Source: Bacteroidetes bacterium 41-46 | GTDB taxonomy: Bacteria > Bacteroidota > Bacteroidia > Bacteroidales > UBA932 | Direction: 5' to 3' | Assembly: GCA_001897515.1 (NCBI GenBank) | Contig: MKTA01000033.1 | Span: forward strand, 62,001 to 126,000 | DNA: 64,000 nt | Part shown: positions 28,756 through 46,645 of the stretch, one piece after another | How the letters are laid out: each line of letters begins with the position of its first letter | Position numbering within the stretch: position 1 is the first letter of the stretch | Notes under the pieces: generated by a model | What the model was told of the DNA's origin: nothing | Database searches by the model: none | What the model saw: the letters and a program-made list of their open reading frames with translations, nothing else | Translations under genes and position numbers: made by a program

Positions 28756-28829
28756 GGTTCGGTAGCTCAGTTGGATAGAGCAACAGCCTTCTAAGCTGTG
28801 GGTCTTGGGTTCGAATCCCAACCGAATCA
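28756..28829 (+). tRNA. tRNA-Arg (anticodon UCU)
   Basis: The 74-nt sequence folds into a full cloverleaf: acceptor stem GGTTCGG with CCGAATC, D-arm GCTC/GAGC, anticodon stem ACAGC/GCTGT with loop CTTCTAA (anticodon TCT), and T-arm TTGGG/CCCAA with loop TTCGAAT. CCA is not encoded. The gene is intact although a prophage begins just downstream, as expected when the element supplies or preserves the tRNA 3' end. Confidence 0.97.
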
Positions 28830-28842
28830 CTTCAAAACGATC

Positions 28843-29057: not shown

Positions 29058-30272
29058 ATGATTACTTTGAAAATGGTGATCCGTCCTGAAAGAATTAAAA
29101 GAGATGGTACCTGGCCCGTAAATTTAAGAATTTCTTATCAAAGAAAGTCAACTAATATCTCAACTCCCTATTTTGTGACAAAGTCTCAGATCAATAAAAA
29201 CTTTGAAATAAAGGATCGTTTCCTTCAGATGCAGATTGATGAAGACTTGAATAAAGCAAGGAGAGAGGTTTCTAATGAGTTCGCAAAGTTGTCAAGTATG
29301 ACAGTCTCTCAAATAGGAGAGTATATGTCAGGTTTTCTTTACTCTAAGAAGAAGGATGATATCAATTTCTTTGAATTTGCGAAGCTTCATATTGCAAGGA
29401 TGGAGGAGAATAATCAAGCATCCCGGGGGAATTACGGGATATCGGTCCGGAAGATAAAAGCATATGTCGGCCACGAAGATTTATCATTTAACGACATCTC
29501 AATAACCTTTCTGTCAAACTTTGACACCTGGTTAAAAAATAACGGAGTGGGTACCAGGGGCCGGGCACTATATTTGTCTAATTTGAGGGCCATTTTCAAC
29601 GCTGCTTTAAGAGAGTATAACGATGAGGACAGTGATGTAATCCGAATCACTAAAAACCCATTTAAACGATTTTCATTGCCAAAGGTAGAGACTCCTGAAA
29701 AAAGAGCATTGTCATTAGAGCAGGTGAGAAAACTCATCGCATATGAGCCAGAAAAAGAGACAGTGCAGTTTGCCAAGGATGTTTTTTTAATGTCATTCTA
29801 TCTTGTAGGAATGAATTCGGTAGATCTATACCAAGTGACTAAGATATCTGCAGATAGAATAATATACAAAAGAGCTAAAACAAGGGATATCCGGTCAGAT
29901 GGAGCTGAGATCTCAATTAAACTGGAACCGCAAGTAATGCCATTAATTGAAAAATACAGAGATAATAACAGAGAAAGAGTCTTTAATTTTCACTACAGAT
30001 ACTCAACAGCTGCTGGATTTAACTCTGCAGTAAACGAATATCTGAAGACAATCGGTAAAGCAATAGGTGTTGAAGAGCTAGACTTCTACGCAGCAAGACA
30101 TACCTGGGCAACTCTCTTTGTAAATGAATGTGAAGGATCCGAGTCAGAAGCTGCATTCTGCTTAAATCACGTCTCAGAACATAAAGTCACTTCAGGATAC
30201 ATTAAAAAAGATTTCGCCCGGATTGACCGGGCGAATCGTAAGGTTATTGATTTAGTAATTAAATCAATCTAA
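29058..30272 (+). CDS. int: Bacteroides-type tyrosine recombinase/integrase
   Basis: The 404-residue protein integrates and excises the phage by site-specific recombination. It has an N-terminal arm-binding domain (MITLKMVIRPERIKRDGTW), a core-binding SAM-like domain (about 110-210) and a catalytic domain. The nucleophile is Tyr381 (TSGYIKKDF), with Arg347 in FYAARHTW. The first arginine of the usual box I is replaced by Asn253 (GMNSVDL) and the box II histidine by Tyr344. Such departures are known in Bacteroides integrases, so it is probably active. Its end overlaps the convergent HicA-like gene by 9 nt. Confidence 0.93.
   Translation: MITLKMVIRPERIKRDGTWPVNLRISYQRKSTNISTPYFVTKSQINKNFEIKDRFLQMQIDEDLNKARREVSNEFAKLSSMTVSQIGEYMSGFLYSKKKDDINFFEFAKLHIARMEENNQASRGNYGISVRKIKAYVGHEDLSFNDISITFLSNFDTWLKNNGVGTRGRALYLSNLRAIFNAALREYNDEDSDVIRITKNPFKRFSLPKVETPEKRALSLEQVRKLIAYEPEKETVQFAKDVFLMSFYLVGMNSVDLYQVTKISADRIIYKRAKTRDIRSDGAEISIKLEPQVMPLIEKYRDNNRERVFNFHYRYSTAAGFNSAVNEYLKTIGKAIGVEELDFYAARHTWATLFVNECEGSESEAAFCLNHVSEHKVTSGYIKKDFARIDRANRKVIDLVIKSI
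30213..30235. terminator. GC-rich hairpin inside the 3' end of the integrase gene
   Basis: TTCGCCCGG (30213-30221) and CCGGGCGAA (30227-30235) form a perfect 9-bp stem with a 5-nt loop, about 37 nt before the integrase stop and at the tail of the opposing cargo transcript. It may act as a bidirectional terminator, though it has no T tract. Confidence 0.45.
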
Positions 30273-30551
30273 TTTTCCGCTTTCAGCTAAAATTTTAAAA
30301 TAAGCCTCTTTGCTTAATGGGCAATTTGCAAGGTCTATGAATTGCTCTTTATTAAGCTTGCATTGGACACTCATTGATTTAATCAGAGGGTCTCTAATGT
30401 CATCATTGTTATGACTAACTTTGGTCTGAGCAACAAGCTTGCCTTCGTTATATAGCAACAAATAAATATGGTCAGGACTATTATTTGACGATACTACGAA
30501 TCCTTTTTTCTTAAGACTTTTTAAGGTTTTATTTCTATTTAAGCAACTCAT
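30264..30551 (-). CDS. HicA-like small protein (putative toxin)
   Basis: The 95-residue protein starts with a helix and LKSLKKKGFVVSSNNSPDHI, then beta strands and VSHNNDDI, a layout like the dsRNA-binding HicA fold in which a histidine in the S/D-H segment is catalytic. The tail (NKEQFIDLANCPLSKEAY) is not typical of short HicA toxins. I infer an RNA-binding or mRNA-cleaving role. It overlaps the upstream larger gene by four bases, as toxin-antitoxin pairs often do. Confidence 0.5.
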   Translation of the reverse strand: MSCLNRNKTLKSLKKKGFVVSSNNSPDHIYLLLYNEGKLVAQTKVSHNNDDIRDPLIKSMSVQCKLNKEQFIDLANCPLSKEAYFKILAESGKLD

Positions 30552-31474
30552 ACTTCAATACTTTTAACAAGTTTATTGATGGCGTTTTTGATAAATAGAT
30601 TATGTTTTGTAAGCTGAGTATCACTGTGGCTATTTAGTAAATTGTACACATATTCAAACTCAGCTCCAAATGCATCTTCGGCCTCATCTTGTGAATAGCC
30701 GGTAGCAATAATATCAAGCATTTCTGAATGAATCACATAGTAATCATCTTCTTTCTCAAATAAGCATCTTAGCGGATGCTCAAGTATATACTTGTTTGTT
30801 CCGCAAACAATAATGGTTGGGGAATATTCAATGGAATACTTGTCTTGAGTGTAAAGGTTCATAATTGTTTTTCTAACTCTTCCCTTTTTACGAGTAATTT
30901 TTACCCTGGCAACAGCTTCGCCATTCTCTGCTGTTTCAATCTCTCTTGGTTCAAACTTAACGACAAGGGCTTCTTTTACACCTGATTTGAATTTTTTGAT
31001 ACCATATAATGGTACAAAAGAGTCTCCTTCTTTTTTAACAATCCTTACGGGAGTGGATCCTAATCCGTTTGCAAATGTATATAAATTTTCAACTATCGGT
31101 GTCCTTTTTTCCGCTTCAGGATATAATTGAAGCAATTTTGTATAGTCACCAGTATCTGAAATTTCAAACAAATCTTCCAGTTTATTGTTCACTTTATCCC
31201 GGTATTCTTGAAAATTGAATCCGGATCTGAGCTCTGCTCTTGGGGAATAGCTGAACTTCGGAACTGCACTTCCTGGAGAAAATCCAGAAAGCTCAATTTG
31301 GAATGTCTCTAAAGCTATAGCGCTATCTTGAGGTAGATCTGCATTTGCTATTGAGAAAATTAGTTTTTGCAAATTATTAGCTAGCTTTATCAAGCTGTCA
31401 ATTGGTAGAGTGTGATACTTGCCAAGTTCGCCATCTACTTGTATGTCGATTCCTTCTTCAAGGTTGATTTTCAT
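30548..31474 (-). CDS. Hypothetical protein with HicB-like C-terminal region (putative antitoxin)
   Basis: The 308-residue protein is not a named family that I recognise. Residues 1-180 form an alpha/beta region with GFSPGSAVPKFSYSPR. The C-terminal part, with EDDYYVIHSEMLDIIATGYS and QDEAEDAFGAEFEYVYN, resembles the partial RNase H fold of HicB antitoxins. There is no obvious DNA-binding domain. It overlaps both neighbours by 4 nt, so the three genes are translated in series. An antitoxin or effector-control role is an inference. Confidence 0.5.
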   Translation of the reverse strand: MKINLEEGIDIQVDGELGKYHTLPIDSLIKLANNLQKLIFSIANADLPQDSAIALETFQIELSGFSPGSAVPKFSYSPRAELRSGFNFQEYRDKVNNKLEDLFEISDTGDYTKLLQLYPEAEKRTPIVENLYTFANGLGSTPVRIVKKEGDSFVPLYGIKKFKSGVKEALVVKFEPREIETAENGEAVARVKITRKKGRVRKTIMNLYTQDKYSIEYSPTIIVCGTNKYILEHPLRCLFEKEDDYYVIHSEMLDIIATGYSQDEAEDAFGAEFEYVYNLLNSHSDTQLTKHNLFIKNAINKLVKSIEV

Positions 31475-31899
31475 AACCCACTTACTTCCGTATTAACACT
31501 CCTCTTTGTCTTGAACATGGCTTTTACCTCTTCTAGCTCTTCAGCAGAAAGGTACTTTATATCAAGCTTCAGAAGCCAGTGATATACATTTTGGTTTTGT
31601 ACAGTTACTACATATGCCTGGACAAATTCCCATCCTTGTCCTCCCATCCAGTTCATCGCATCAACCATTGAGTTGAAAACTATTACTTTTCCAGTTTCAT
31701 CTCTTAGTCTGGTGTCTTCTCCGAACCTGGTATTTTGACCAAAGTCTACATTGACGGTAACTTTGTTGCTAAGGAATTTTTGAGTTCCCAATATCTCGCA
31801 ATAAATATAGGAATCACCATTTTTACTATTGGTGTTTTCTTGAGCAAATAAGTTGTGCGAAAAGAGCACAACGAGTGCAAGTACGATGAGTTTTTTCAT
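31471..31899 (-). CDS. Secreted DUF4177-like hypothetical protein
   Basis: The 142-residue protein has a signal peptide (MKKLIVLALVVLFSHNLFAQ, cleavage after AQ). The mature part contains FNSMVDAMNWMGGQGWEFVQ and NVYHWLLKLD, similar to DUF4177-type proteins often seen on Bacteroides mobile elements. A secreted protein inside a prophage lysogeny operon suggests a lysogenic conversion role at the envelope, such as superinfection exclusion; this is inference only. Confidence 0.65.
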   Translation of the reverse strand: MKKLIVLALVVLFSHNLFAQENTNSKNGDSYIYCEILGTQKFLSNKVTVNVDFGQNTRFGEDTRLRDETGKVIVFNSMVDAMNWMGGQGWEFVQAYVVTVQNQNVYHWLLKLDIKYLSAEELEEVKAMFKTKRSVNTEVSGL

Positions 31900-31915
31900 A
31901 GCGTAAAATACTGGT

Positions 31916-32998
31916 TTATAACGTAATTAGATTTAGTTTTTTTCTTAGTTCATTTTCATCCAACAGGGTTATATTGCATCCCTCTGAATTAAGATCGGTC
32001 ACTTTTTGCATTTTTGCCGGGCCGAAACCTTCTCCGTAAATAACAATATTGGTTTTTTTAGAAATTGACGTACAGACATCTGCTCCCATCTCTTTGAGTT
32101 TTAGAGCAAGATCTTCTCTAATAGGGAATGTTTCAAATACTCCTGTAATTACAACCTTTTTATTATAGAAGTAGTTGTCTGGGTTGGAAACTGAGCTGAG
32201 GTCTTGCTTAAGAGCTTCTGAGGATATGGTTCTTGACGCTGGTTTGAAATATGCAGAATTCTTCTCTTTTCTGGCTTGACTATTTTCTTTAACCTTTGAA
32301 CTTTTTAGGGAGTTAATGACTTTGAGATGATGGATAAAAATTTTAGCACAAGCCCTGGCATCTTCAAGAGCATCATGGTGGTTTCTAAGTTCAATATTGT
32401 ATAAGGCACAAGTGTCAGGAAGAGTGAGATTGTTGTGAATTTGGCATGTGCAAAAAGTGGTTAGCTCTGGTAAGGAAAGATTGTAGTAGGTGCAATTTGT
32501 TTTAAGAACATCAATGTCAAATGCAGCATTATGAGCCACAACAGGAGTGTCATTAAAGTAATGCTTTATCTCAGGCCAGAGGTCTCTAAATGTTGGACTA
32601 TTTTTAGTTATTGAAGGATTTATGCCATGTACATTCAAGCATCCTGAATCATAATAGTTATTTGGAGGTTGTATCAAATAAATCATTTCGTCAACAATCT
32701 GGAGGTTCTCAACTTTTACTATGCCCAGCTGGCATGCCATTCTTTTGTATGTGGCTGTTTCAAAGTCTATAGCAATAAAACTAGTTATGCTTAATGGATT
32801 AATGTCAGAATTTAGTGATTTTGTTGTTTTTATCTCTTTTCTGAGCTCTTTAATTTCAATAGATTGTCTTTGAATTATATCCTTTAATAGGATTGTGATC
32901 ATTTGAAGATCCTTGAGAGGGAAAGTATCAATATTTTGCTCATTAATTGAATTGGATATTTCGTATATCCTAAGATAATCTTCAAAATAATCACTCAT
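31916..32998 (-). CDS. DnaQ-like 3'-5' exonuclease with C-terminal BRCT domain
   Basis: The 360-residue protein joins a DEDDh exonuclease (motifs IAIDFETA, VAHNAAFDIDVL and NHHDALEDARACA) to a BRCT domain at about residues 275-355 (KKVVITGVFETFPIRE, then ISKKTNIVIYGEGFGPAK). A coiled N-terminal 60 residues precede the nuclease. Related DnaQ-BRCT proteins occur widely in bacteria with roles guessed in DNA repair. Here it lies directly before the secreted protein gene (16 nt) and after the repressor (51 nt), and so is probably expressed in the lysogen. Confidence 0.88.
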   Translation of the reverse strand: MSDYFEDYLRIYEISNSINEQNIDTFPLKDLQMITILLKDIIQRQSIEIKELRKEIKTTKSLNSDINPLSITSFIAIDFETATYKRMACQLGIVKVENLQIVDEMIYLIQPPNNYYDSGCLNVHGINPSITKNSPTFRDLWPEIKHYFNDTPVVAHNAAFDIDVLKTNCTYYNLSLPELTTFCTCQIHNNLTLPDTCALYNIELRNHHDALEDARACAKIFIHHLKVINSLKSSKVKENSQARKEKNSAYFKPASRTISSEALKQDLSSVSNPDNYFYNKKVVITGVFETFPIREDLALKLKEMGADVCTSISKKTNIVIYGEGFGPAKMQKVTDLNSEGCNITLLDENELRKKLNLITL

Positions 32999-44572: not shown

Positions 44573-45369
44573 ATGAGTTTAACTTTTCGTGAAAAAAATG
44601 CATTAGCAAAAGAACTGGCTAATGACAGTTTTATTGAAAAGGATAAGGATATCCTTCGTAAGCATTTGCCGCAAGAGAAGCTATTAAGTCGCTCGCCATC
44701 CAGCAGCAGACCCGATCTATCATTTGATATACTATTTGTGCTGTTAGATTATGAAACTCCAGAGTCAATAAGAGCTAACAGAGATAGCTTAACTAAAGTG
44801 AAAGACGTAAAAACAGGTATTGATGATAATCCTATAAGGAAGACATCTCAATCAAAGGGAACTTTAAAAAAAAAGTTACCAAAGAAGAGGAGTATACAAA
44901 GATCAAGTGGACCAATCTGGAAAACCAAGACATCAGAGATGCTCACACAGTGTATTCAGACCGGGTCTATAGCTATCGCAGGATGTGCGAACTGGATAAA
45001 GCACTTGAAGTAGAACCTACATCATCCGGGATAATTGAAATGGTTGAGTTGGGGATTAGAAACAGGATGTGTTTTAAAGAGCTGGAGAATTATAATAGGA
45101 CCGGGAAGTTTTTATATCAGCATCCACTTATCCAGAAGAATACCCTCCGCTCTACTTTATTAAATCTAATGCGAAGAGATCCCCAGGCATTCCTGGAAGA
45201 GCACAAGAATGTGTCAAACAATATTTCCAGATATAAGTCATTCTTAAACAGAAAGAGGGCAAAGGAGGAGGATAAAAAGAAGTGGCAGTTGCAATTGAAT
45301 AAACACACAGAGACGCTCGCTTTAATAACAGATATAATGCATGAATTGAACTATGGAAAAAACAATTAG
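44573..45369 (+). CDS. Phage protein expressed through a probable -1 frameshift at A9
   Basis: The first frame (44573-45013, start MSLTFREKNALAKELANDSF) and a second frame one base back (open 44830-45369) overlap by about 180 nt. After the A9 run (44866-44874, codons TTA AAA AAA AAG) the original frame loses protein character, while the -1 frame reads KVTKEEEYTKIKWTNLENQD and continues to LITDIMHELNYG. A slip at A-AAA-AAG would give one protein of about 265 residues, helical and charged. An internal start (44950) or a homopolymer error are alternatives. Its function is unknown; it overlaps the next gene by 17 nt. Confidence 0.6.
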
Positions 45370-46645
45370 AGTATTTAACCTGGGGAACCTCCCTGTGTGC
45401 GATTTTGAAGAGTTTTATGACCTTCAGGAAGATTTTAAGATCTATGACCCGGAACTGAACAAAAAGCTTCAGAATCTCATTATTTCACGAGGTTTTAAGT
45501 ACTCTTTTTTAGTTTGGATAGATGAGACCGGTAAAAAGTGGATTATTGACGCTCATCAAAGGAAAAAGGCACTTGCTGAGTTAAGAAGCCAGGGTTACAA
45601 CATTCCGGCCATTCCTTACGAGTCAATTTATGCAGAGGATAAAAGAGACGCAGTTGCAGAGATAGCTGCTCAGAACTCCATTTTTGCCCAAAAGAACCCG
45701 GATACCATCTTGTTTGACAAGTACGAAATATCTGAAGACGATCTTTCCATCTTTAATTTAGATATGAGTCCAATAAATATGGACTTTTCCAATATGCTCT
45801 CTGATGAACCTGAATTAAAGGCGGAGCAAGATAATTACGAAGAACCGGAAGATCTGCAGACGGATATAGTACTTGGAGATATTATCGAATTCTCATTGGG
45901 TAATCTGAAGCATCGTCTTCTTTGTGGAGATAGCACAAGCTCTGAGGATGTTGCTAAGCTACTCGCAGGAACCAAGCCCATGTTGATGGTAACAGATCCT
46001 CCTTATGGAGTGAATTATGATCCAAGCTGGAGGGCCAAAGTAGGAGGAAAGATTAAGTCTGTAAGCAAAGTTACAAATGATGATAATCCTTCCTGGTTTA
46101 ACGCGTATGTTCTCTTCCCCGGTAATGTAGTTTACATATGGCATGGGGCTCTTTTTACACACGTCTTTGCCACCGATATCGAGGAGGCCGGTTTTAGCCT
46201 TATATCTCAAATAATTTGGAATAAAAATACTTGTGCAATGTCCAGGGGAGATATCCACTGGAAGCATGAATCGTGCTGGTATGGAGTGAAAAAGGGACAG
46301 AGACACAACTGGCAAGGGGCAAGAAATGTAATGTCAGTGTGGGATATCCAAAACCTATCATCAAAAAGCGTCCGGGAGAGAGAGGGGGTTTCAGGTCATG
46401 GGACACAGAAACCAATTGAGTGCATGGCTAGGCCGATAATGAATAATTCAGCTATTAACGACTTGGTTTATGATCCTTTCATTGGTTCCGGGACAACTAT
46501 GGTGGCAGCTCATCAGCTTCACAGGAACTGTTATGCAATGGAAATCACACCAAAACATTGTCAGATGGTAATTGAAAGAATGAAGCGGTTTGACTCAAAA
46601 ATTATTGTAACAATTAATGGTCTAGAGTATAATGGCAACATATGA
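45353..46645 (+). CDS. ParB-domain and DNA methyltransferase fusion
   Basis: The 430-residue protein has an N-terminal ParB/sulfiredoxin-like domain with DAHQRKKAL at residues 66-74, then an amino-group DNA methyltransferase with the catalytic DPPY at 215-218 before the SAM-binding FIGSGTT at 376-382, the order of beta-class enzymes. DPPY points to N6-adenine or N4-cytosine. No restriction enzyme is next to it, so it is likely an orphan methylase protecting phage DNA or marking it for packaging. It lies just before terminase genes. Confidence 0.92.
   Translation: MEKTIRVFNLGNLPVCDFEEFYDLQEDFKIYDPELNKKLQNLIISRGFKYSFLVWIDETGKKWIIDAHQRKKALAELRSQGYNIPAIPYESIYAEDKRDAVAEIAAQNSIFAQKNPDTILFDKYEISEDDLSIFNLDMSPINMDFSNMLSDEPELKAEQDNYEEPEDLQTDIVLGDIIEFSLGNLKHRLLCGDSTSSEDVAKLLAGTKPMLMVTDPPYGVNYDPSWRAKVGGKIKSVSKVTNDDNPSWFNAYVLFPGNVVYIWHGALFTHVFATDIEEAGFSLISQIIWNKNTCAMSRGDIHWKHESCWYGVKKGQRHNWQGARNVMSVWDIQNLSSKSVREREGVSGHGTQKPIECMARPIMNNSAINDLVYDPFIGSGTTMVAAHQLHRNCYAMEITPKHCQMVIERMKRFDSKIIVTINGLEYNGNI

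Follow-up and report, generated by a model that had tools for sequence, protein, structure and literature searches.

Among described toxin-antitoxin operons, Class 8 hicBA provides the nearest point of comparison for the genes considered here. According to the part of the published classification that deals with this class (Gerdes 2024, PMC10865869), its HicB gene spans 331-356 codons (342-356 amino acids in the text), and the protein combines an N-terminal domain of ~170 amino acids without known relatives, a middle domain (amino acids 175-253) that resembles lysyl-tRNA synthetase, and a C-terminal HicB fold. The accompanying HicA has ~95 amino acids and carries two additional C-terminal helices. 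In the same source, only two of the 14 contexts are said to have been studied by experiment. Here we describe a 64,000-nucleotide stretch of DNA, hereafter called the window, from Bacteroidetes bacterium 41-46 (contig MKTA01000033.1, positions 62,001 to 126,000), in which two overlapping open reading frames (ORFs) encode proteins of 95 and 308 amino acids beside a prophage integrase. We consider it very likely that these genes form a hicBA-type type II toxin-antitoxin pair. The two genes are as follows:

30264..30551, minus strand: HicA-like toxin candidate, 95 amino acids (ORF call, predicted structure and family alignment)
30548..31474, minus strand: HicB-like antitoxin candidate, 308 amino acids (ORF call, predicted structure and family comparison)

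Resemblance to HicA and HicB

The predicted structure of the 95-amino-acid protein consists of an alpha-beta-beta-beta-alpha core (residues 6-63), which has the double-stranded RNA-binding domain (dsRBD)-like arrangement of HicA and matches solved HicA structures, followed by extra C-terminal helices at residues 68-76 and 81-90. Four HicA entries are among the best solved-structure matches of this model. The sequence matches the Pfam family PF07927 (HicA_toxin) at 16.2 bits (E 0.012), which is below the 27-bit cut-off for curated membership, and PHROG 353, annotated as 'toxin', at 6.4e-4; PADLOC returned no match for the protein. The resemblance to HicA is weak by sequence and clear by predicted structure. 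In addition, His28 aligns with the HicA histidine, including that of both HicA sequences at a chromosomal locus discussed below (L080), and is kept in 20 of 21 family members. This residue corresponds to the conserved histidine of the HicA GSH motif. In the remaining family member, a degenerate toxin relative (L022:6161-6448), Tyr replaces the histidine, the SH motif is altered, and the gene no longer overlaps that of the antitoxin. This degenerate copy adjoins a gene that looks like gyrB.

The model of the 308-amino-acid protein begins with an alpha/beta domain (residues ~1-170) without a confident known fold, passes through a low-confidence stretch at residues 175-209 (predicted local distance difference test score, pLDDT, below 50), and ends in a domain (residues ~228-308) that is HicB-like by predicted structure and family comparison and matches HicB-type antitoxins. 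A Pfam scan gave no match for this HicB-like end, and the PADLOC matches to the whole protein were marginal (E 0.017-0.034). A structure search in BFVD matched the protein, at E 2.8e-4 and with a TM-score of 0.29, to one annotated as DUF6575. The corresponding family, PF20215, is not among the Pfam families listed for the 308-amino-acid protein or for 15 family members, and none was found in the protein's own genome. This possible resemblance to DUF6575 is only a lead.

Shortened forms of the pair also occur. One genome (G471) holds three separate short versions (L005, L007 and L008), in which partners of 121-150 amino acids correspond to the HicB-like domain alone. At another locus (L023:7877-8752), where the pair directly follows a tRNA-Arg (CCT) gene, the N-terminal half of the antitoxin is deleted and the toxin gene is intact.

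Compared by published description, the closest described kind of pair is Class 8 hicBA. In both cases the antitoxin gene comes first and is closely linked to the toxin gene, and the genes of Class 8 are described in that source as often overlapping. The window HicA agrees with Class 8 in its length of 95 amino acids and its two extra C-terminal helices, the window HicB likewise has a long N-terminal domain and a HicB fold at its C-terminus, and a DNA-binding domain is not recognised in either HicB. However, the window HicB, at 308 amino acids, falls outside the length range of the class, and the middle domain of Class 8 HicB has no confident counterpart in the window protein, whose low-confidence stretch lies in this region. 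Because of this length and the unconfirmed middle domain, we regard the pair as a shorter, Class-8-like variant rather than a member. The gap in length is bridged by a relative of 336 amino acids (L004), since it aligns with the 308-amino-acid protein over nearly its full length (7.5e-13, scaled to a search space of 100,000). Comparison by hhalign with partner proteins of 348-362 amino acids that fit the Class 8 description gave P 0.041, and the same comparison with more members gave P 0.015 (local) and 0.0018 (global), with a probability below 10% and with partners matched by description. Homology with these Class-8-like partners is only suggestive.

The canonical hicAB arrangement, in which a PF07927 HicA is combined with HicB, resembles the window pair in the HicA fold, the aligned histidine, and the HicB-like fold of the partner. 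It differs in that the gene order in the window is reversed, HicA is extended, and the Pfam scores lie below the cut-offs. Moreover, the window HicB lacks the C-terminal DNA-binding domain and carries a large N-terminal domain.

Recurrence of the pair

Across 84,980 species genomes, a profile search with the 308-amino-acid protein recovered 14 loci (49 pattern matches); viral contigs gave two. Single-protein and two-row searches yielded relatives in 2 of 198 and 4 of 395 genomes, respectively, with the own genome counted each time. One of these four (L006, E 7.9e-4) was dropped, as it lies in a 600-amino-acid ORF that looks like a mechanosensitive-channel protein and was taken as a chance match. 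Repeats of the window and of L003 (L001 and L002) were left out, and L003/L013 and L010/L021, judged by their identical scores to be one contig and one sequence, respectively, were each counted once. The resulting set comprises 21 loci, representing 19 distinct places other than the window, in stretches 3 to 18 kb long. The named relatives are mostly from Bacteroidota.

At all 21 kept loci (19 of 19 distinct places), a relative of the 95-amino-acid protein is encoded directly 3ˊ on the same strand. The 4-nt overlap between the two genes, located at 30548-30551 in the window, recurs at eight of the 19 places (L003/L013, L008, L009, L011, L012, L017, L020 and L023). The protein distances of the two pair members correlate (r 0.85, 0 of 5000 permutations) across 14 loci, a comparison from which L023 and L024 were omitted. 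Among three close relatives, the antitoxin has a ratio of nonsynonymous to synonymous substitution rates (dN/dS) of 0.08-0.09, and the toxin one of 0-0.08. This low dN/dS, together with the recurrence in distant genomes, indicates that the pair is more than two chance ORFs.

The settings of the pair vary. In an unrelated phage (L009) it is again flanked by an integrase and a repressor-like gene, and at L010/L021 it stands beside phage structural and lysozyme-like genes. The pair is also found alone in chromosomes, outside phages. Among the neighbours, which were selected by eye for scanning, restriction-modification genes are located directly downstream at three of the 19 places (L003/L013, L011 and L020), and a tRNA gene is present within 300 bp upstream at four (L011, L012, L020 and L023). 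At one of the places with restriction-modification genes (L003:6534-9701), a 1055-amino-acid protein of the Eco57I/N6-methyltransferase type, whose gene starts 36 nt past the pair, resembles a single-chain restriction-modification enzyme. Elsewhere (L033:399-3235), a DEAD/ResIII helicase gene, possibly a defence neighbour, comes after the genes for a 360-amino-acid partner and a toxin relative.

A variable slot in a phage group

In the window, the pair is part of a block of four genes flanked on one side by an integrase, with a tRNA-Arg gene beyond it, and on the other by a gene in the repressor position. The setting is that of a prophage, with the following features:

28756..28830, plus strand: tRNA-Arg (TCT) beside the integrase
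29058..30272, plus strand: tyrosine integrase, 404 amino acids, convergent with the pair; 9-nt overlap with the 95-amino-acid gene
30213..30235, minus strand: terminator-like hairpin of 9 pairs, then a T-rich tail, within the integrase 3ˊ end (consensus match)
30259..31495, no strand assigned: cargo cassette comprising only the pair and ~21 nt, without counterpart in three phages of the same backbone
31471..31899, minus strand: small protein, 142 amino acids, probably exported, constant in the phage group (ORF call and phage comparison)
31916..32998, minus strand: DnaQ-family exonuclease with BRCT domain, 360 amino acids, second variable slot (Pfam and phage comparison)
33050..33577, minus strand: repressor-position gene, 175 amino acids (PHROG 9710, 1.8e-5; no Pfam family)

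The tRNA-Arg gene is a probable attachment site. The original prediction, made from the letters of the window, had placed four minus-strand genes at 30264-32998, with 4-nt overlaps joining the last three, and the ORF coordinates agree (the second overlap is at 31471-31474). It had also named a DnaQ-BRCT exonuclease, and the RNase_T (7.2e-16) and BRCT (3.7e-5) matches of the 360-amino-acid protein both exceed the Pfam cut-offs. The HicA-like protein and the HicB-like end that it proposed are those recovered above by predicted structure. Its description of the 142-amino-acid protein as secreted and DUF4177-like holds in part: judged by its N-terminal letters, the protein is probably exported, and residues 80-99 match DUF4177 marginally (E 0.089).

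An integrase search of viral contigs gave eight loci, and close sharing of the window's phage backbone was seen only in three of these contigs (L057, L058 and L059). DNA similarity of the three to the window stops at 30263, 30258 and 30254 and resumes at 31496, 31496 and 31505. These borders exactly enclose the pair, and the intervening stretch, 1.2 kb in the window, contains no other gene. By the same coordinates, the slot measures ~4.9 kb in L059, ~2.7 kb in L057, and ~2.1 kb in L058. It is occupied in L059 by genes for an N6-methyltransferase/HSDR_N-like protein, an SNase, and a DUF2188/PDC-S16 protein, and in L058 by PDC-M30A and DUF5131-PDC-M30B genes. The L057 slot holds a DUF2971/PDC-S31 gene and an overlapping pair of genes for 289 and 147 amino acids (L057:7752-9061), both without a match in Pfam or in PADLOC at E 0.001. 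By their sequence matches, several slot genes in the three phages belong to known or candidate defence families, in agreement with the earlier claim that this location is a cargo slot of temperate phages.

The gene for the 142-amino-acid protein is present in all four phages, and its final codons fall within the exchanged stretch. The DnaQ gene occupies a second variable slot, because it is present in L059 (~90% identical), replaced by a 178-amino-acid gene in L057, and absent from L058. The hairpin has an identical stem in L057 and weaker ones in L058 and L059, as judged by consensus match. If this element is indeed a terminator, it would, from its position just beyond the pair, stop transcripts leaving the cargo slot. 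Elsewhere among the phage genes of the window (45353-46645) is a gene for a 430-amino-acid protein that appears to combine a ParB-type domain with a DNA methyltransferase.

Hotspots that exchange antiviral systems have been described for prophages of the P2 and P4 phages (Rousset 2022, PMC9122126). The likeness, as far as that account extends, is that a fixed place in a temperate phage carries differing antiviral-type modules in each member. In contrast, the present case concerns another phage group, from Bacteroidota and represented by four phages.

Proposed function and alternatives

The explanation that we consider probable as a whole, mechanism included, is that a temperate phage of Bacteroidota carries a hicBA-type operon in a slot for exchangeable cargo, which has the lysogeny genes on one side and the integrase on the other. 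The operon would be expressed in the lysogen along with the upstream genes on the same strand. The 95-amino-acid protein would act as an RNase that stops translation, and the C-terminal HicB-like domain of its partner would keep it inactive, while the N-terminal domain might substitute for the usual DNA-binding domain and add a trigger or regulatory function. Superinfection would free the toxin, which would then abort the rival's growth; a further effect of the module may be to stabilise the prophage. A more specific version, which we regard as speculative and rather unlikely, is that the N-terminal domain (~1-170) is a sensor of phage infection and the pair an abortive-infection switch released by superinfection. 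If this version holds, the phage group would use the slot beside the small exported protein as a general site at which such modules are swapped.

Abortive defence has been demonstrated for PD-T4-10 and other toxin-antitoxin systems of E. coli mobile elements (Vassallo 2022, PMC9519451). As presented there, PD-T4-10 also consists of two overlapping genes on mobile elements, antitoxin then toxin. It differs in that no sequence relation to the window pair was seen, PADLOC giving at most marginal matches.

We place the chance that superinfection defence is the main use of the pair at about even. Two observations weigh against this account or against a clean split of the pair from its neighbours. 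First, the link to defence by neighbourhood is partial, with most of the other places having neither a restriction nor a tRNA neighbour. Second, relatives of the 142-amino-acid protein, present in 15 of 198 related genomes including the own, tend to have suggestive neighbours. Thirteen stretches were fetched round these relatives, and the relative is an open ORF in 11 of them (not in L075 or L077). At six of the 11 chromosomal loci, toxin-antitoxin, restriction or similar genes lie within ~2.5 kb, although neighbours were picked by eye without a control and the count may reflect background density. These neighbours include YoeB with Phd/YefM (L079), HsdM (L081), DUF5131 (L082), and YhcG with HipA (L085). 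At L080 the relative lies 137 bp from a HicB-sized ORF that is followed by a HicA gene, and at L086 the relative is flanked by the S and R genes of type I restriction, with DUF5131 farther off. A DnaQ-type exonuclease gene (P0004 match, 2.9e-24) is located ~1.8 kb from the relative on the same strand at L083.

Prophage retention, a possible though tentatively held alternative for the main use, would involve the same toxin-antitoxin biochemistry, chiefly punishing loss of the prophage rather than stopping phages. It fits the position of the pair, which adjoins the window integrase and lies in the repressor-integrase interval of L009, as well as its occurrence alone in chromosomes, which is a common state for toxin-antitoxin modules. 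However, the other phages of the group fill this slot with restriction-like genes and candidate defence genes, which suggests selection for defence cargo. Other uses, or none, make up the rest. It is improbable that the genes instead encode a protein with a dsRNA-binding fold and a partner that serve the phage in a regulatory or counter-defence role, as the top structural matches and the conserved histidine indicate HicA and HicB, and several members are chromosomal rather than phage-borne or have restriction systems as neighbours.

Least probable, to the point of being hardly tenable, is the originally proposed single system in which the nuclease, the exported protein and the toxin-antitoxin pair act jointly: the tight packing, the 4-nt overlap of the pair with the 142-amino-acid gene, and the chromosomal neighbours listed above, including the exonuclease at L083, lend it partial favour, but relatives of the 142- or 360-amino-acid proteins were found at none of the 21 pair loci (E 0.01, within stretches of 3 to 18 kb), pair relatives were found in none of the 13 stretches round the 142-amino-acid relatives, and the pair alone is swapped exactly, with the DnaQ gene missing from L057 and L058. 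Because exchange of the pair is independent of that of the DnaQ gene and the 142-amino-acid gene is constant, the four genes do not appear to be one system. The conserved linkage sought elsewhere was found for the pair, at every distinct place kept, and not for the four-gene cluster, and what had seemed a combination of no nameable kind contains a pair whose close kind, Class 8 hicBA, is already described.

With the hicBA-type pair as exchangeable cargo, the four-gene proposal is narrowed to a two-gene cassette that has exact borders and close phages lacking it, so that its function is cleanly testable. More systems can be sought in the slot itself, where Bacteroidota prophages swap modules of restriction-like, candidate defence and toxin-antitoxin type.
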